DNA of 51,049 nucleotides from Flavobacteriales bacterium (GTDB taxonomy: Bacteria; Bacteroidota; Bacteroidia; CAIKAF01). The notes below the pieces were generated by a model. It worked only from the letters and a program-made list of their open reading frames with translations. It was not told the DNA's origin and searched no databases. Shown here one piece after another: positions 30,794-50,208 of this stretch. Position numbers and translations under genes: made by a program. The stretch covers positions 1 to 51,049 of the forward strand of contig JANWWP010000001.1 in assembly GCA_025055575.1 (NCBI GenBank), written 5' to 3'. Each line of letters opens with the position of its first letter. Within the stretch, counting starts at the first letter, position 1.

Positions 30794-32563
30794 TCAGGCT
30801 GGGATGCTTTCTGTCAGGAGTTCAGATAATTCAGGCAGCTCCTGGGCGGCAGATTGAAGTTTTTCTTGCCACAGCGCGCACACCGGGGCAAATTTTTCTA
30901 TCGGTTTCAGGATTTCGAGGATTTCCAACACAAGCAGCCAACTGTGGGCGTTGATCGCAGGCAGTGCATCCAGAATGTCCAAAAGCGACTCCGGTGGCTC
31001 AGTTCCTTCGCGCACTTTGCGCACCTGGCCATACATTTGATGGAGGCGGCGCATATCATCGGAGTATTGGATTTTGTGGGTCTTTTCCCGGGGAGGCTCA
31101 AAATGTAATGGAAAGGACCAGGGGTCCGCCACGCCAGAAAAAACGGAAATCACGCTGTGGCCTACGGCTAAATCAAAGACACCCCATTCTGGACGGAAGA
31201 GGATTTCATCACCCAGGCGCACAGCGCAATCCTCAAAGCGGAAAATAAGATTTGTCCCTTCCTGGGACCGGATATTTTCCAAAAAGCGCCCTTCCAATGA
31301 AATACCGGATTCAAAGGTGGCCTGCACCCGGTTCCCGGGTACAAAACCATTCTGATGAAAAGTATCGGAAGTCCAGTGCTCAAGACGGGTTTCAATGCCA
31401 CGGATTTTTCCCACAAGGGTGCTGAAACCGTGCACATGATAATCTGCGCCCTGGCCTGGAATTTGGGAGTTATTATAGGCCAAGGATACAGGTCCTGAAA
31501 ACCGAACGAAAGAGGGCCTGTTCCAGGCGTCTTGTTTAAAATCGTTCAAAATTCCGCTGATCTGAATACCGCTGCTCAGCACCACAGTGGCCATCGAACC
31601 GGATTCTCGGGCCTTCTGAAGGCCATATATTCCGCCACGACGCAGGGCCATGCCGTCAGCAAACTGATTGAGCACATCTTTGAGGTGATCGAAATCCGGC
31701 GTCACGAAAAGTTGAGGTTGCGGACGGGTGATATCAAAATCCACATGCATGGCGTCCAGGGTGTAAGGCAATTTTTTCACTTCGGGCCGCATGCACCACA
31801 TACTTTCTCCAATGGACGAAAGGAGCCCGGCGCCGTAAATCTGGGGATTTTCCAGGGTGCCGATCAGGCCGTATTCCACGGTCCACCAGTGTAACCTTCG
31901 GATGAGCGCCATCTCGGAAGGGGGACCCATATCGGCCGATATTTCGGCAATGCGTTGCTCTCCTGCCTGGATATCCGCCTGCGGAGTATATGGGTCTTCT
32001 TTTATTATGGAGAGGTGGCGAATGGCTTCAAAAAGTTCGAAATCCCGCCGCGAGGAAAAGGCCCTGCAGCCTATTTCCCCAAAATATCTCAGGTATTCTG
32101 CATAGTCCGCATCGGCAATGATGGGAGCATGCCCGGCCGCTTCATGAATAATATCCGGGGCGGGGGTGTATTGAATGTGTTCAATTTGTCGGATGTCGGC
32201 CGCGATCACCAGCACTTTGTAGGCCTGAAATTCCATGAAAGCCTGAGGATGGATAAAACCATCCACAGTGCAGGCAGCCCAGCCAATGCGTCCCAGAATT
32301 TCGTTCATTTCCCGGACGGATGGAATGGATTCCAGCGTGATGCCCGTCCGCTGCAAACCTTCTAAATAGGATTTGTGCGCCACCTTAGATAAATAAGCCA
32401 CATTGCGTTTCATCACAAAACGCCACACGGCATGGTCAGCCGGTGTGTAGCTGTCATAGTGCTGGGGCACCATGAAGGCTTTCAAGTGCGGAGGCAGCTG
32501 ATCCAAAACAGGGCTGGAATAGTCTAAAGGCTCCTGCGGGGCCAGAACCGTGGTAGAATTCAT
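30794..32563 (-). CDS. Aromatic amino acid hydroxylase (phenylalanine 4-monooxygenase-like) with C-terminal extension
   Basis: A 589-residue protein. Residues about 50-330 form the pterin-dependent hydroxylase core. The iron ligands are HEAAGH (two His) and the Glu in WWTVEYGLIG; the segment PDIIHEAAGHAP is the family signature. The final roughly 250 residues have no recognisable domain, and long versions of about 590 residues occur in Bacteroidota. It hydroxylates Phe (or Trp) with O2 and a tetrahydropterin. It is the first gene of an operon with the SDR. Substrate preference is not readable. Confidence 0.88.
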   Translation of the reverse strand: MNSTTVLAPQEPLDYSSPVLDQLPPHLKAFMVPQHYDSYTPADHAVWRFVMKRNVAYLSKVAHKSYLEGLQRTGITLESIPSVREMNEILGRIGWAACTVDGFIHPQAFMEFQAYKVLVIAADIRQIEHIQYTPAPDIIHEAAGHAPIIADADYAEYLRYFGEIGCRAFSSRRDFELFEAIRHLSIIKEDPYTPQADIQAGEQRIAEISADMGPPSEMALIRRLHWWTVEYGLIGTLENPQIYGAGLLSSIGESMWCMRPEVKKLPYTLDAMHVDFDITRPQPQLFVTPDFDHLKDVLNQFADGMALRRGGIYGLQKARESGSMATVVLSSGIQISGILNDFKQDAWNRPSFVRFSGPVSLAYNNSQIPGQGADYHVHGFSTLVGKIRGIETRLEHWTSDTFHQNGFVPGNRVQATFESGISLEGRFLENIRSQEGTNLIFRFEDCAVRLGDEILFRPEWGVFDLAVGHSVISVFSGVADPWSFPLHFEPPREKTHKIQYSDDMRRLHQMYGQVRKVREGTEPPESLLDILDALPAINAHSWLLVLEILEILKPIEKFAPVCALWQEKLQSAAQELPELSELLTESIPA

Positions 32564-43846: not shown

Positions 43847-44575
43847 CTAATCCCTAGGAAGGCTTCCTGTGAGTTGAATAAATACATCTTCCAAACTTTT
43901 TCCGGCGCCAAATTTTTGATGTAAGCCGGCCGGTGAGGCGTCCTCCAGGATGCGACCATTATCCAGGATGACGATGCGTTCACACAATATTTCTGTCTCC
44001 CGCAGGTGGTGGGATGTATAAATCAATGTGCAGCCCCTTTCATGCAACTCCCGAAGATAATCATTCACCACTTTCCGGCTTTGAACGTCGATGCCCGCCG
44101 TGGGTTCGTCCAAGAAGAGAATTTCAGGATCATGCAACACAGCGGCGGCCAGGTTCAGTCTTTTTTTCATACCACCGGAATAGGTATTGACAGGCTGCCG
44201 GGCGGCCTCGGCCAATCCGAAACGATCCAACACCTGGCGGATGCGGGCGCGGGCTTCTTGAACTGATAGCTGGTAAGCCGCGCTGAAAAAATGGAGATTT
44301 TCCCAAGCATTGAGCGTGGGAAAAAGTGCCGCATCCTGAGGAACAAACCCGATAGCGTGCCGCCTTTGAACACGGATTTGGACTTCGCCCTGCAAGGGTT
44401 TTTTTAGCCCTGTCATCAATAAAATTAGAGTGGACTTTCCGGCGCCATTGGGTCCCACCAAACCCAAAAATGTGCCCCTTTTGATTTCCAGGTCAAAATC
44501 TTGAAATACAGGTTGCCTGGCCCCCGGATACCCAAATCGGACGGCCCTCAGGCGTAAGGCATAGTCTTCGGTCAT
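43847..44575 (-). CDS. ABC transporter ATP-binding protein
   Basis: A 242-residue ABC ATPase. The start is ATG 44575, which overlaps the TGA of the BtrH-like gene (ATGA); a longer frame exists but runs inside that gene. Walker A is GLVGPNGAGKSTLILLM, the signature is YSGGMKKRLN, Walker B is EILFLDEPTAG, and the H-loop is IYTSHH. This resembles ATPases of ABC-2 type exporters. No permease gene lies next to it: downstream is a 160-base gap, then a GT22 gene. It is the last gene of a five-gene operon. Confidence 0.9.
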   Translation of the reverse strand: MTEDYALRLRAVRFGYPGARQPVFQDFDLEIKRGTFLGLVGPNGAGKSTLILLMTGLKKPLQGEVQIRVQRRHAIGFVPQDAALFPTLNAWENLHFFSAAYQLSVQEARARIRQVLDRFGLAEAARQPVNTYSGGMKKRLNLAAAVLHDPEILFLDEPTAGIDVQSRKVVNDYLRELHERGCTLIYTSHHLRETEILCERIVILDNGRILEDASPAGLHQKFGAGKSLEDVFIQLTGSLPRD

Positions 44576-45633
44576 GGTTGGAGGGGCAACTTGCGCACAA
44601 AGGAGGCAATTGTTTGATAGGTCTTTTCTTCCTCCCCGGCAATATCCAGCAGCCTTTGGCTTAGAGCATGATAGGCAGCAGGGCCGTGATCCTGCCCGCG
44701 GTTTTTGCAGATGCGGGCCGCCTCCACGGCGAAATCCCGCCATAAATCACCTATGGTATTCATGCGCAGAGCCATATCCTGAAAAAAATGTGTATCCAGG
44801 TGGGTTGCAGCTTCAGACAGAAAGGCGGCGTATAGGTAGCGGAATCCGGCTCCACCGGTGCCTATTTCTTCTTGCATTCGCACGATCTGACCCAGGTTCA
44901 ACGCCGCCTGCTTTGGGGTCATACGCATGGGCCACCGGCGCAAACGAGAGGCGAGAAAGCGGATACCTTTAACGCCAAAATAGGGCAGAGGAATCCGAAG
45001 CATATCGTACATATTGCTTCGAAGGCCTTTCAAAATAGCTGTTTTTATTGGCAGCGTGGCGGGCGCTTCATCGATCCAGTACATTTTTCCTTTGGGAGCG
45101 GCCGTGCCTTTAGCGAAACGTACGCGCGCCAGTTCCTCCTCCGTCAGCTGAGTCACTTGTTGCATCACAGGGTCGCTCACATGGTACACGGGGCCTTCTT
45201 TTTTAAAAACCACGAGATTATGGGCGTTAAAGTGAAAACGATAGTGGGGCGGGAAATACGGAAGGTGAAATACGCCCACCAGACAGCCCGTGGGGATTCC
45301 TTGTTCAAGATTCCGGTCCAGAGCTTCCATGGCTTTATGAACATGGCGGAAGGAGCGGGTGTGCACAGGAATTCCGAGCCTGTGGGTAGCTCTCCTGAAG
45401 ATGGCCCCCGGGAGGGGACGAAAGGATGTGACCGGCATGCCATGAAGTCGGATGAAAGGCATGTGAGAAAAAAACAACCCTGAGCCAATCCCAAAAATTA
45501 GAGGTTCTGAAATATCCCACCCTTTGTTAAGGAGCAAGGCGGCTGTGGCGCCGTTCTCGCAATGAGCGGCCGTCACATGCCGGAAAGATGCGTTTCTGGA
45601 AGTGGAGGTAGGGGGCGGAGAAAACTCAGACAT
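44572..45633 (-). CDS. BtrH N-terminal domain protein (BtrH/DUF4872-like)
   Basis: A 353-residue protein; ATG 45633 overlaps the end of the upstream gene by 8 bases. The N-terminal half has AAHCENGATAALLLNKGWDIS, split by family position, and IFGIGSGLFFSHMPFIRLHGMP, as in BtrH_N proteins. BtrH of butirosin biosynthesis moves an acyl group from a carrier protein onto an aminoglycoside amine. Cys in HCENG and the later His/Asp (NAHNLVVF, HVSDP) fit a cysteine-protease-like acyltransferase. The C-terminal half resembles DUF4872. It is flanked by fatty-acid-type enzymes and an ABC ATPase, so an acyl-transfer step in making a lipid-like product is inferred. Confidence 0.8.
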   Translation of the reverse strand: MSEFSPPPTSTSRNASFRHVTAAHCENGATAALLLNKGWDISEPLIFGIGSGLFFSHMPFIRLHGMPVTSFRPLPGAIFRRATHRLGIPVHTRSFRHVHKAMEALDRNLEQGIPTGCLVGVFHLPYFPPHYRFHFNAHNLVVFKKEGPVYHVSDPVMQQVTQLTEEELARVRFAKGTAAPKGKMYWIDEAPATLPIKTAILKGLRSNMYDMLRIPLPYFGVKGIRFLASRLRRWPMRMTPKQAALNLGQIVRMQEEIGTGGAGFRYLYAAFLSEAATHLDTHFFQDMALRMNTIGDLWRDFAVEAARICKNRGQDHGPAAYHALSQRLLDIAGEEEKTYQTIASFVRKLPLQP

Positions 45634-46030
45634 CCGGGAGGTTATCCAGTGTATCGGGTTCAAGCATCAGAACCTTGGCATAGGCCTCTTTTTCTTTGGC
45701 CGATATGAGACTGTATCCGGCCGGTGTGCAGTGTTTTCGAACTTTTCTTTTGGGAAATCCAGTATATCGACTCAAAAGGTTTACATCCATTTGAGCGCGC
45801 ACCATATAGTAATATAAAGGGCTTTTTAGACCGGCCTGCACCTCCCTGAGCGCTTGTTCGGCTTCTGCGTGAATGCCTTCCCAGGCTTGCAGGATGACTG
45901 TGTTCTTGGCTTCCCAGCCGCTGCTGAAAACCTGGACAAATTGGCCATTCTCGTCCAACGCATAGTACACATCCTTTCGGAGCCCTGCATTCACGACATC
46001 CGGGTCTTGAGGCACCTCCTCTTTTTTCAT
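45626..46030 (-). CDS. Conserved-looking hypothetical protein in the BtrH operon
   Basis: A 134-residue soluble protein of no family I can name. It has a YYALDENGQFVQVFSSGWEA start, a helical middle (EGIHAEAEQALREVQAG), then SPLYYYMVRAQMDVNLLSRY and GFPKRKVRKHCTP, which looks like a helix-turn-helix or helical-bundle end. There is no DSL-type phosphopantetheine motif, so it is not an acyl carrier protein. It overlaps the BtrH-like gene by 8 bases and lies 33 bases after the hotdog gene; the strict operon position suggests it belongs to the same pathway. Confidence 0.7.
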   Translation of the reverse strand: MKKEEVPQDPDVVNAGLRKDVYYALDENGQFVQVFSSGWEAKNTVILQAWEGIHAEAEQALREVQAGLKSPLYYYMVRAQMDVNLLSRYTGFPKRKVRKHCTPAGYSLISAKEKEAYAKVLMLEPDTLDNLPDV

Positions 46031-46063
46031 GTCTTAATGGGCCGTGCTGAGGGCAAAAATATT

Positions 46064-46516
46064 TCAGGCTTTGGAACCCTCGGCGTGGAAAATTTTGAAT
46101 ACCGCTTCCGCCACTTTCTTTTCCAAAAAAAATATCACAGCTTCCGCCAGGGCAATCTGCCCCACCGTTTGTTTAAAAATGAATCGAGTAATCAAAGGAG
46201 ATTCCACAGGTGGAAGAACATGAAAAGAAGCCTGGTCTATGGATGCAATAAAGCCTCTCGGCGCCGGCCGGTTGAACTGGCTGGCCAGATATCCTTGGTG
46301 CAAAGCTCCAGTTTGGGCCATGTTTTCCAATAAAGCTTCTGCCGACACAAAACCCCCTTGGGCCAGGGCATGGTCAGCCGGCATGCGGTACGCGCTTAGG
46401 GCCTCCATGTCTTGCACTTCTAGCAGACTGTCCACAAAAACGAAGGGCGGGGCCTGGGGAATTAGCTTCAGGAGATCGGCCCCGTGAAGGGGTAATTTCA
46501 GAGAACGCGCAGCCAT
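46064..46516 (-). CDS. Hotdog-fold protein (FabZ/ApeI-like 3-hydroxyacyl-ACP dehydratase)
   Basis: A 150-residue protein with the hotdog pattern: LIPQAPPFVFVDSLLEV, as in FabZ (PHRxPFLLVDRV), and ADHALAQGGFVSAEALLENMAQ, where a His and a Glu 15 residues apart fit the FabZ catalytic pair. The canonical GHFPG is absent, as in the ApeI/aryl-polyene type. It could dehydrate 3-hydroxyacyl-ACP. It overlaps the KAS III-like gene by 19 bases and is thus translationally linked. Confidence 0.75.
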   Translation of the reverse strand: MAARSLKLPLHGADLLKLIPQAPPFVFVDSLLEVQDMEALSAYRMPADHALAQGGFVSAEALLENMAQTGALHQGYLASQFNRPAPRGFIASIDQASFHVLPPVESPLITRFIFKQTVGQIALAEAVIFFLEKKVAEAVFKIFHAEGSKA

Positions 46517-47649
46517 GCGTAGCCATAACTAAACCGGGCGCTTTCCGGTACCATCACCAAAATATTTTGCCCGGATTTCAGAAGATTTTTCTGCACCATT
46601 TCATTTAAAAAACAAAATATAGCCGCAGCACCAATATTCCCAGTTTCCGTAAGGTTGGTAAACCACTTTTCACGAGGCACAGGAAACCCTATCTGCCGAA
46701 GTTCCGCTTCGATTTTGTCTGCAAAAAACATGGAAGACAAGTGGGGCAAAAACCAATCCACTTGCTCAGGATTCAGGTTGTATTTTCGGATGAGTTTCTG
46801 AAGAGTTATGCCACCATAACGGACAATATTTTCGGAAAGAAGTTTGGTATTTTGCTGAATGGCAAACATGCTGTGTGCGGCATGTTGTGCCGGGCTAAAG
46901 GCTCGGTAACTGTGCAGGACGCCCTGGGCATCCCACATCCCGCCGATGAACATGCACGTGGGTAATTGCCCTGCGTAAGAAACCAATTCCATCCATTGGA
47001 TTTCTATATTCAGTCCCTCTCCTGGCTCCCGGCTAACGTACACAGCGGCTGCGCCGTCCGAAAGCATCCATCGTAAAAAATCCCGTTCAAAAGCTAAAAA
47101 GGGCTCTGCCTCCAGTTCGGCGAGTTTTTTCACTTCTTCCTCAAATTGTTCGGCCCGCAAGGCGGGTGAAAATAACTCGGAACCAGCCACTACGGCACGA
47201 TGTGCCAAGCCAGATTTAAGATGTGCATAGACATACTTGAGACATCCAAAAGAACTCAGACAGCTGCCTCCAAACGACACGGCTTCCATGGGCGGCCATC
47301 CCAGCACGCCATGTACCATGGAGGCATGGGATGGCAGAAGGTGGTCCGGCCAGGTGCTGCCGCAGGCCAGAATGTCCGGAATTTCGGAATTCTCAAGCGC
47401 ATGTTCCGGACCCTGCGGCCAGAGTCTTTTTATGGCCTCGGCCGCCAGTTCGGCATTGGAATATACAATATGCCCATCGGAACGTGTGGCATAATACCGG
47501 CGCTGAATTTTATTGTTACGCAGAACGATGGCTTTCGATTTGGAGGCTTTTCCTGCCACATATCCCAGGTGCTCTTCCATGGCTTCATTGGATATTGGGG
47601 CACCTGGCAAGAAAGAAGAATATCGGGTAATATAAACGCGTTGATGCAA
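46498..47649 (-). CDS. 3-oxoacyl-ACP synthase III (KAS III/FabH)-like protein
   Basis: A 383-residue thiolase-fold synthase. The nucleophile Cys is in SFGGSCLSSFGCLKY (about residue 130). His is in VDWFLPHLSS, where FabH has HQAN, and Asn is in TETGNIGAAAIFC, so the Cys-His-Asn triad is kept but the motif around His differs. The start is TTG 47649: an in-frame stop lies five codons upstream and no ATG occurs before VYITRYSSFLPG, the family N-terminus. It condenses an acyl donor with malonyl-ACP or a related extender. It is first in the five-gene operon and divergent from the hydrolase. Confidence 0.83.
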   Translation of the reverse strand: MHQRVYITRYSSFLPGAPISNEAMEEHLGYVAGKASKSKAIVLRNNKIQRRYYATRSDGHIVYSNAELAAEAIKRLWPQGPEHALENSEIPDILACGSTWPDHLLPSHASMVHGVLGWPPMEAVSFGGSCLSSFGCLKYVYAHLKSGLAHRAVVAGSELFSPALRAEQFEEEVKKLAELEAEPFLAFERDFLRWMLSDGAAAVYVSREPGEGLNIEIQWMELVSYAGQLPTCMFIGGMWDAQGVLHSYRAFSPAQHAAHSMFAIQQNTKLLSENIVRYGGITLQKLIRKYNLNPEQVDWFLPHLSSMFFADKIEAELRQIGFPVPREKWFTNLTETGNIGAAAIFCFLNEMVQKNLLKSGQNILVMVPESARFSYGYAWLRVL

Positions 47650-47704: not shown

Positions 47705-48706
47705 GTGAAGACCCCTTTTAAAATAATTCAGCGCTCTTTCGCGATATTGTCCGTTCTTCATGGTATAGGCGCATTCTTGGGAAAGGCCGAAGCGCAGCCT
47801 TCCCGTTTGTATAAAGAGCGGGAGATGATGGTCATGAGCGAGGGATGGAGGTTGTATGGAACCTTAGTTCAACCCACGCAACCCAGAGAGCCGGCCTCTG
47901 TGGTGTTGCTGATCGCGGGTTCAGGACCCACGGACCGCCAGGGCAACAGTGGGGCTACTGTGGCGCCGGCGTACCTGAAGAAAATGGCTGAAGCTCTGGC
48001 TGCGCACGGTATCGCCTCTTTGCGGTACGACAAAAGGGGTGTTGGCGCTTCGCGGGACAAGAGCCTACGGGAAGAACGTTTGCTTTTCACGCATTATGTC
48101 CAGGATGCGGCCGCTTGGATTCATCGTTTGCGTCAGATGGGCCGGTTTCGCCGCATTGTGGTGCTGGGACATAGTGAAGGTGCACTCGTAGCCACGCTGG
48201 CCTGTCAAAAAGAAAAGCCCGATGCCCTGATTCTTCTTTGCGGCGCTGGATTCCCATCCGATTCCCTCCTCAAACAACAACTTACAACCAACCCTTTCAA
48301 CCGCCCTTGGCTATCAAGGGCTTTTTCCCTTATCGATTCAATCCGTGCGGGCCAACGGCCAGGAAATATTCCGGCAGCGCTACAAAGTCTTTTCAGACCT
48401 TCTGTTCAGCCATACCTCGCCTCGTGGTTTGAGTATGACCCAGCTGCCGAGTTGGCCCGTTTGGAACTGCCCAAACTGGTAATCGGGGGTTCCACGGACA
48501 TTCAAGTGAACAAAAACAACTTTGAAAGACTATGTACGAAGGGTCAGGCCAGTGAATGTTTCCTCATCGACGGTATGAACCATGTTCTGGTGGAGGCCTC
48601 CGATGATTATGGGGCCAACTTAGCGACGTATTTTGATCCCCAACGTCCTCTCCACGGTCTTCTTGTGGAAAAAGTCCTTAACTTTATGCACCAACTTCAA
48701 CCTTAA
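47705..48706 (+). CDS. Alpha/beta hydrolase, secreted
   Basis: A 333-residue alpha/beta hydrolase with an N-terminal signal-like stretch (about residues 10-30, ending KAEAQ). The oxyanion-hole segment is LLIAGSGPTDRQGN, the nucleophile is Ser in VVLGHSEGALVA, and the candidate Asp and His are in GGSTDIQV and DGMNHVLVEA. This is the peptidase S9/BAAT-like esterase group, often annotated as a dienelactone-type hydrolase. The GTG start is the only plausible one. It faces the KAS III-like gene across 55 bases, so it may share its regulation. Substrate unknown. Confidence 0.82.
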   Translation: MKTPFKIIQRSFAILSVLHGIGAFLGKAEAQPSRLYKEREMMVMSEGWRLYGTLVQPTQPREPASVVLLIAGSGPTDRQGNSGATVAPAYLKKMAEALAAHGIASLRYDKRGVGASRDKSLREERLLFTHYVQDAAAWIHRLRQMGRFRRIVVLGHSEGALVATLACQKEKPDALILLCGAGFPSDSLLKQQLTTNPFNRPWLSRAFSLIDSIRAGQRPGNIPAALQSLFRPSVQPYLASWFEYDPAAELARLELPKLVIGGSTDIQVNKNNFERLCTKGQASECFLIDGMNHVLVEASDDYGANLATYFDPQRPLHGLLVEKVLNFMHQLQP

Positions 48707-48716
48707 ATTTTATTGC

Positions 48717-49544
48717 ATGAAAAAGAAATTTACAATTCTTGCGCTCTCTTTTTTGTCCTTTGCCTTTTGGCTGGCTTTTCGTCCTCAAGGCATAAGCCGA
48801 TCTAATGGCGCGCAGCTGACCAGCAATTATACCGGTGCCCCGGGGTTCTCCACCTGCACTCAGTGCCACTCTGGTGTTGTCAACTCTGGGCCGGGTTCGG
48901 TGGCTATCAGCACAAATATTCCTGGAAATCTCTACGTGCCTGGGCAGACGTATCAGGTGACCGTGACTTTGAATTCAGGCGGCGGAAACCAGGCCAAATA
49001 TGGTTTTATGCTGGCGCCCATGCAAGGCAGCACTTATAGGGGTATTTTACAAGCCACCGACGGCAATTGTTTTGTAGAAAGTGGGGGACGCTGGATTGTG
49101 CATACCTCGGCAGGCAATGCCGGAGGCGTGCCCACAAAAACCTTCACTTTTAACTGGACAGCGCCCACATCGGGGACCGGTGCGGTCACTTTTTACGCTG
49201 CCGGCAACTGCGCCAATGGCAACGGCGGAGATGGAGGCGACCAGATTTACACGGGATCCCTCACTGTGAATGAACAGCCTTCCGCCGGCCTCACCTCAGT
49301 GCAGGGGCCTTTCATTTCTGTGTTTCCAAACCCTGCAAGAGATTTTATTCAAGTGTCTGCGCCCGGTCATACATTGGCTTCGTATGCCGTGTACGAACTC
49401 TCCGGCCGCTGCGTGCAAAGCGGCTCTCTGCCAGCCCTTTCCGAAGCCCGATTGGAAATTTCCTCACTTAAGAATGCTGTTTACATCCTTATAGTCAAGG
49501 ATGTATGGGGACGCATCTCGGCAGAGCGTTTGGTGAAGTATTAA
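48717..49544 (+). CDS. Choice-of-anchor V-like secreted protein with CxxCH motif and T9SS type A sorting domain
   Basis: A 275-residue protein; ATG 48717 opens a signal peptide (residues 1-about 23). Residues about 35-60 hold FSTCTQCHSGVV, with an exact CxxCH heme-attachment motif. The central domain (about 60-190) matches the choice-of-anchor V/Reeler-like fold, with GFMLAPMQGSTYRG and AAGNCANGNGGDGGDQ. The last 75 residues are a T9SS type A C-terminal domain (VFPNPARDFIQVS, ending ERLVKY). Export would use Sec and T9SS. It starts 10 bases after the hydrolase, so the two are probably co-transcribed. Confidence 0.85.
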   Translation: MKKKFTILALSFLSFAFWLAFRPQGISRSNGAQLTSNYTGAPGFSTCTQCHSGVVNSGPGSVAISTNIPGNLYVPGQTYQVTVTLNSGGGNQAKYGFMLAPMQGSTYRGILQATDGNCFVESGGRWIVHTSAGNAGGVPTKTFTFNWTAPTSGTGAVTFYAAGNCANGNGGDGGDQIYTGSLTVNEQPSAGLTSVQGPFISVFPNPARDFIQVSAPGHTLASYAVYELSGRCVQSGSLPALSEARLEISSLKNAVYILIVKDVWGRISAERLVKY

Positions 49545-49557
49545 TAAAGCCCTGAAT

Positions 49558-50208
49558 CTAAGAGGTCATTTTTCGTCGGGCCATCATCAGGCCGTCTCTC
49601 AGAGGCAGCATCAGCGTTTCCAGTTGAGGATCCTCAGCGATCCTCTGCGCAAAGCGCCTCAGTCCCTGAGTTTCTTTATCCTGCACCGCCGCATTCAGCA
49701 CTTTGCCGCTCCACAGCACATTGTCTGCAAGCCATAGGCCGCCTGGATTCAGCCGGTCCCGCAGCAAGGTGTAGTAGGCCGGATAATTTTCCTTGTCTGC
49801 GTCTAAGAAAATCAGATCAAAATTTTGAACTGGCAATTTTGGAATGGTTTCAAGGGCATTCCCCAAAACCCAATGCATTCTGTCGGCATAAGGGCTTTGT
49901 GACCAGTAGCGCTTTGCAATTTCTTCAAATTCCGGGTCAGCTTCCAGGGAGAATAACTGGCCCTCAGGTGGAAGCCCCTCGGCCAGGCACAACGCAGAAT
50001 ATCCAGTGAAGGTGCCCACTTCCAGAATGGTGCGGGGCCTTAGCATGCGCGATACCCATGCCAAAAACCGGCCCTGCAAAGGGCCACTCAGCATTTGGGG
50101 ATACAATGTTTTTAAATGGGTTTCACGGTACAGCGCCTGCAGATATTCCGGCCCGGCATCGGAATGTTGAAAGCAGTATTCTTCTATATCTTCAGAAACC
50201 AGATGCAT
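49558..50208 (-). CDS. O-methyltransferase (class I SAM-dependent, COMT/catechol type)
   Basis: A 216-residue methyltransferase. SAM-binding motif I is LEVGTFTGYSALCLAEGLP, motif II is SLEADPEFEE, and the family-specific FLDADKENYPAYY provides the metal-binding Asp and Lys of caffeoyl-CoA-type enzymes. It is soluble and cytoplasmic. The methyl acceptor is not readable. It stands alone, convergent with the T9SS cargo gene (13-base gap). Confidence 0.9.
   Translation of the reverse strand: MHLVSEDIEEYCFQHSDAGPEYLQALYRETHLKTLYPQMLSGPLQGRFLAWVSRMLRPRTILEVGTFTGYSALCLAEGLPPEGQLFSLEADPEFEEIAKRYWSQSPYADRMHWVLGNALETIPKLPVQNFDLIFLDADKENYPAYYTLLRDRLNPGGLWLADNVLWSGKVLNAAVQDKETQGLRRFAQRIAEDPQLETLMLPLRDGLMMARRKMTS

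Follow-up and report, generated by a model that had tools for sequence, protein, structure and literature searches.

The window, by which we mean the whole stretch of 51,049 nucleotides that was analysed, contains five open reading frames on its minus strand between positions 43847 and 47649. From the highest coordinates downwards, they are:

46498-47649, minus strand: darB, a StlD/DarB family ketosynthase/cyclase of 383 aa with a TTG start (NCBIfam NF005293; StlD structure 5gk0)
46064-46516, minus strand: FabZ-related hotdog protein of 150 aa (weak FabZ match, 22.8 bits; family alignment)
45626-46030, minus strand: DarG family protein of 134 aa (NF053536, 127.6 bits, cut-off 70)
44572-45633, minus strand: DarH, a BtrH_N + DUF4872 acyltransferase-like protein of 353 aa (NF053550, PF14399, PF16169)
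43847-44575, minus strand: ABC transporter ATPase, DrrA/NodI-like, of 242 aa (PF00005, 115 bits)

Neighboring frames overlap by 19, 8 and 4 bases and are separated by a single gap of 33 bases, values that follow from the starts used and that agree with a preliminary description of this DNA. The 353 aa of DarH are counted from the start chosen in that description, and a longer in-frame TTG start lies at 45663; the ABC ATPase is 242 aa as called, with a longer ATG start at 44743. Profile matches bore out the labels that had been given to four of the products (KAS III-like, hotdog, BtrH-type and ABC ATPase), and the 134-residue protein, which had been placed in no known family, turned out to match NCBIfam DarG_fam. 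No ACP or permease gene is adjacent, as had already been remarked. All five genes recur in unchanged order in a sister species from the genus (L027/L025), where the overlaps are 4, 8 and 4 bases and the gap is 21 bases; the arrangement is therefore conserved and not due to chance.

On the other side of darB, only 55 bases away, there begins a divergent gene that by eye resembles an alpha/beta-hydrolase, in the stretch 47705-50208 of the window. The order of this gene and two further ones (48633-49544 on the plus strand and 49558-50208 on the minus strand) is also kept in the sister species, which raises the possibility of a divergent promoter region shared with the operon.

The product of darB scores 469.5 bits against the NCBIfam model of the StlD/DarB subfamily (cut-off 450) and matches StlD along its whole length (E = 1.4e-90), with the catalytic Cys, His and Asn common to both proteins. 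The stilbene pathway of StlD is not known to include DarG, DarH or polyene genes. DarB falls below the cut-off of the strict resorcinol_DarB model (460.2 of 550 bits), just as DarG falls below that of the strict flexirubin_DarG model (122.4 of 170 bits), and each is recovered by the broader model of its family or subfamily. For this reason we file both proteins with the broader dar family only, and the exact product may differ from those already described.

The hotdog protein is a remote relative of FabZ, and here the label of dehydratase in the preliminary description held in part: the protein does belong to the hotdog family, but of the FabZ catalytic pair of His and Glu it has only the Glu (Glu64), with Gly at the position of the catalytic His. 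In the alignment of its family Glu64 is invariant and no member has His at the catalytic position. Relatives of this protein also occur in clusters with polyene genes only, so it is probably a dehydratase partner of the polyene type and not an enzyme specific to dialkylresorcinols. We consider the chances even that it contributes to dehydration of the chain, where it might be a non-catalytic partner to a second hotdog protein.

The operon has a counterpart of known type. In Azoarcus sp. BH72 the dar cluster for arcuflavin runs darA-darB-darD-darE (BtrH-like)-darF (ABC ATPase), followed by the permease gene darI and the ACP gene darC, the whole being darABDEF...I,C,J (PMC3949708). Azoarcus and our genome have in common the order of darB, a small conserved protein, a BtrH-like protein and an ABC ATPase; DarD is likened to DarG by its position, and our ABC ATPase holds the position of DarF. 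They differ in that the Azoarcus cluster includes darA, the permease, the ACP and a KS, with no hotdog gene between darB and darD, whereas here the hotdog gene is present and DarA, the permease and the ACPs are unlinked. In Chitinophaga pinensis and Flavobacterium johnsoniae the flexirubin genes comprise DarA/DarB, a tyrosine ammonia-lyase, ketosynthases, a LolA-like gene and an acyltransferase (PMC3992019), and homologous sets are present in relatives. Expression of the Chitinophaga darB and darA genes in a heterologous host yields free dialkylresorcinol (PMC3992019), so the ring can be made without DarG, DarH or the ABC ATPase, which act elsewhere.

We investigated the distribution of these genes in 395 Bacteroidota genomes, sampled evenly. 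DarH scores over its cut-off in 31 of them, DarA in the identical 31, and DarB in those 31 plus one other genome (G291); the positives come from about 14-17 genera, so these counts are not phylogenetically independent. A tyrosine ammonia-lyase of the pigment type is present in all 31 DarH genomes and in only 2 of the 364 others (G172 and G291). The preliminary description had looked to joint conservation of the genes, with a permease and an ACP added in other genomes, and relatives show both. DarG is found in 41 of 41 DarH genomes and in none of 9 comparison genomes, and adjoins DarH in 39 of the 41; DarB is likewise found in all 41, within 8 kb in 36 of them; and the ABC ATPase is directly beside DarH in most relatives. 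The dar genes of these relatives stand together with DarA, an ABC-2 permease, ketosynthases, ACPs and a LolA-like gene.

The two exceptions are informative. Both G172 and G291 have polyene clusters (lyase, reductase, ketosynthases, ACP, acyltransferase and hotdog genes), and both are without DarA, DarG and DarH. Because polyene genes can occur without DarG and DarH, we conclude that these two proteins track the resorcinol half of the molecule or the joining step, and not the polyene alone. The DarB of G291 is a lone gene (L050:6113-7252) directly behind a TetR-type regulator; the polyene cluster of that genome is elsewhere. When DarH alone was used as the query in a protein search of genome contigs, the sister species was the sole match. 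A similar search of plasmids found remote BtrH_N proteins only, from Acinetobacter and Streptomyces (27-28% identity among the matches listed), and no DarH.

By profile searches and inspection of targeted stretches, on which the presence of each gene rests, we located other genes of a flexirubin-type pathway elsewhere in our genome (G000):

Contig C12, 42249-43079: DarA aromatase (E = 1.3e-52, full-length alignment)
Contig C13, 42764-43990: ABC-2 permease of the DarI type (322 bits), its sole location in the genome
Contig C23: pigment-type tyrosine ammonia-lyase (918.8 bits), which shares 48% identity with the lyases of intact clusters
Contig C22: ketosynthase (65% identity), ACP (62%) and LpxL-like acyltransferase
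Contig C79, at its end: LolA-like gene, ACP (57%) and ketosynthase (48%)
Contig C26: ketosynthase/chain-length-like (KS/CLF-like) gene (44%)

The pathway genes thus lie on at least six contigs besides the window and on at least seven with it, although the C22 and C79 genes are near contig ends and could be neighbors. Known flexirubin genes are less scattered: F. johnsoniae has them in a single cluster of 37 kb and C. pinensis at two loci. A single cluster is typical of flexirubin pathways but does not define them, and ours is not the only dispersed one. In the sister species the scatter is similar, and in another genome from this family DarA, DarB, DarG and DarH are spread over four contigs. 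The darA gene on C12 is solitary; we considered whether its surroundings might be the polyene cluster and rejected this, its neighbors being housekeeping genes. There is no ATPase gene among the scanned neighbors of the permease on C13, which complements the permease-less ATPase of the window and is about 30% identical to the permeases beside DarH elsewhere.

Two further genes may touch on the aromatic part of the pathway. Beside the C23 lyase is a gene for a halogenase-like flavoprotein (PF04820, L034:10258-11502) with 54% identity to one at the cluster of another genome, G036; from its sequence, it may halogenate the polyene ring. Within the window itself, an open reading frame of 589 residues (30794-32563) resembles by eye a phenylalanine/aromatic amino acid hydroxylase, which could supply tyrosine.

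Flexirubins are orange pigments that serve as chemotaxonomic markers of Bacteroidota. In our interpretation the operon is the dialkylresorcinol (dar) part of a flexirubin-type pathway, the remaining genes of which are scattered through the genome; we estimate the probability of this reading to be roughly 0.88. On the resorcinol side, DarB has its Cys-His-Asn triad, DarA is in the genome, and members of the DarG and DarH families are beside DarB; on the pigment side, the genome has the pigment-type lyase, polyene ketosynthases and ACPs. An operon of this type has been described before, and the unusual part is the dispersal of the rest of a pigment pathway that is normally found in one cluster. 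Genome mining that is based on clusters could miss such a pathway, there being no one locus at which a full cluster can be recognised. The putative product is an aryl-polyene ester of a dialkylresorcinol. In suggesting a pathway for an acyl-conjugated metabolite or lipid, the preliminary description pointed in the right direction, and the product that it had left unnamed can now be given a class, the dialkylresorcinols of flexirubin-type pigments.

The proposed pathway would begin with the condensation by DarB of two fatty-acid-type thioesters to a cyclohexanedione, which DarA, encoded on C12, would aromatise. The aryl polyene would grow separately on ACPs from coumarate derived from tyrosine. 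Once the halves are joined, the ABC ATPase and the unlinked permease, both of which are present in the genome, would rather probably move the product toward the outer membrane.

A different pathway is conceivable: the lipid made by the operon would be a resorcinol or cyclohexanedione without a polyene part, acylated by DarH from an ordinary fatty acyl-ACP and exported by the ABC system. The polyene genes are indeed unlinked to the operon in this genome, and DarA is both divergent (178 bits, compared to about 277-587 for others) and not found in the sister species, whose assembly is 94% complete. Nevertheless, every one of the 31 DarH genomes in the sample has the pigment-type lyase, and our genome retains that lyase together with a polyene ketosynthase and an ACP that are 65% and 62% identical to their counterparts, so we regard a polyene-free product as improbable. 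More distant still is a pathway to an acyl-amine metabolite. This was the chemistry suggested by the preliminary description on the analogy of butirosin, where BtrH itself acylates the amine of an aminoglycoside, but the neighbors here all belong to dialkylresorcinol and polyene families, and neither the operon nor the surroundings of the homologs examined showed genes for amine formation or aminoglycosides. We rejected a novel amine-acylating pathway as very unlikely in view of the co-occurrence with DarA, DarB and the lyase; given a dialkylresorcinol product, the acceptor is most likely a phenol hydroxyl.

Within the dar reading, the step that forms the ester is where DarH comes into question. 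DarH scores 423.2 bits against its family model (cut-off 300) and consists of a BtrH_N domain (PF14399, 150.6 bits) and a DUF4872 domain (PF16169, 173.7 bits). It keeps the catalytic residues whose loss would have spoken against the BtrH assignment: in an alignment of 11 proteins Cys25 and His138 are invariant, and Asp154 is present in all true DarH sequences. Structural comparisons were less informative. An AlphaFold model of DarH, built from two sequences, had a mean pLDDT of 53 and was set aside, and a search of the PDB with the DarH profile gave designed helical bundles as its top-scoring matches, an effect of composition, and matched the AziU3/Azi29 structures at an E-value of only about 0.01.

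BtrH of the butirosin pathway, which has a papain-like fold, is an acyl-ACP acyltransferase acting on an aminoglycoside amine (PMC10318531), and it has in common with DarH the BtrH_N domain and its Cys and His. Since BtrH takes its acyl group from an ACP, and since DarA and DarB suffice for the dialkylresorcinol, DarH could take the polyenoyl chain off its ACP and place it on a hydroxyl of the resorcinol, much as BtrH moves an acyl group to an amine. We lean slightly toward this role; donor and acceptor differ between the two enzymes, and the transfer from an ACP rests on the analogy.

Alternatively, the ester bond may be formed by another enzyme, such as the ligase-like FlxW or the acyltransferase (LpxL-like) encoded among the polyene genes, leaving DarH with hydrolysis, proofreading or carrier loading, for example. 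FlxW has been proposed as the ligase for the ester bond of flexirubin (PMC3992019). The papain-like fold of BtrH_N, with the weak match of DarH to AziU3/Azi29, is compatible with such other roles, and the name acyltransferase for DarH comes from NCBI annotation. This explanation would change only the DarH step and leaves intact the reading of the operon as a dar module. Against it, LpxL-like acyltransferases are also present in the polyene-only clusters of G172 and G291, where DarH is absent, so DarH goes with the dialkylresorcinol half or with the joining step, and not simply with the polyene. We regard a different ester-forming enzyme as less likely. The co-occurrence points to DarH, with DarG, over the FlxW ligase as responsible for the joining, an assignment that is directly testable; in the published dar and flexirubin work that we considered, we found no test of the enzyme that joins the two halves.

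A search of PDB sequences with the DarG profile gave no significant match. In an AF2 model of DarG, residues 1-50 have low confidence and residues 61-130 have block means of pLDDT 89-97. The well-modeled part (approximately residues 63-134) aligns to helix-turn-helix domains of the Cro/C1 type with VIA-align Z-scores up to 9.7 (65 residues, rmsd 2.5), and Foldseek gives such domains a probability of up to 1.00 but E-values of 0.03-0.3. Pfam HTH_26 is also detected weakly in 5 of 9 DarG members (best E = 0.0036). The C-terminal half of DarG is thus predicted to have a fold like that of Cro/C1 helix-turn-helix domains; DNA binding is not implied, because the fold matches include enzymes (HppE and HEPD). 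The chances that DarG is a regulator or scaffold built on this domain are about even. The PQD and GW motifs and His/Pro positions are invariant in the DarG alignment, which at the level of sequence suggests a conserved interaction. Putting these parts together, we tentatively propose that DarH joins the aryl polyene to the dialkylresorcinol, that DarG is a Cro/C1-fold scaffold or regulator specific to the pathway, and that the pathway works in this organism in spite of its dispersal over at least seven loci, a combination that we regard as possible and less probable than the transfer reaction of DarH taken singly.

We also observed DarB-like ketosynthases of a different architecture in four genomes (G039, G236, G333 and G307), where a haem-oxygenase-like domain (PF14518) forms part of the same protein and a DUF6999 gene comes next. 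The fusion genes are located at L046:1890-3740, L047:3419-5269, L048:640-2538 and L049:3214-5151. Judged by its domains, the conserved pair of fusion and DUF6999 gene looks like a different pathway of the cyclohexanedione/resorcinol type with a built-in oxidase.
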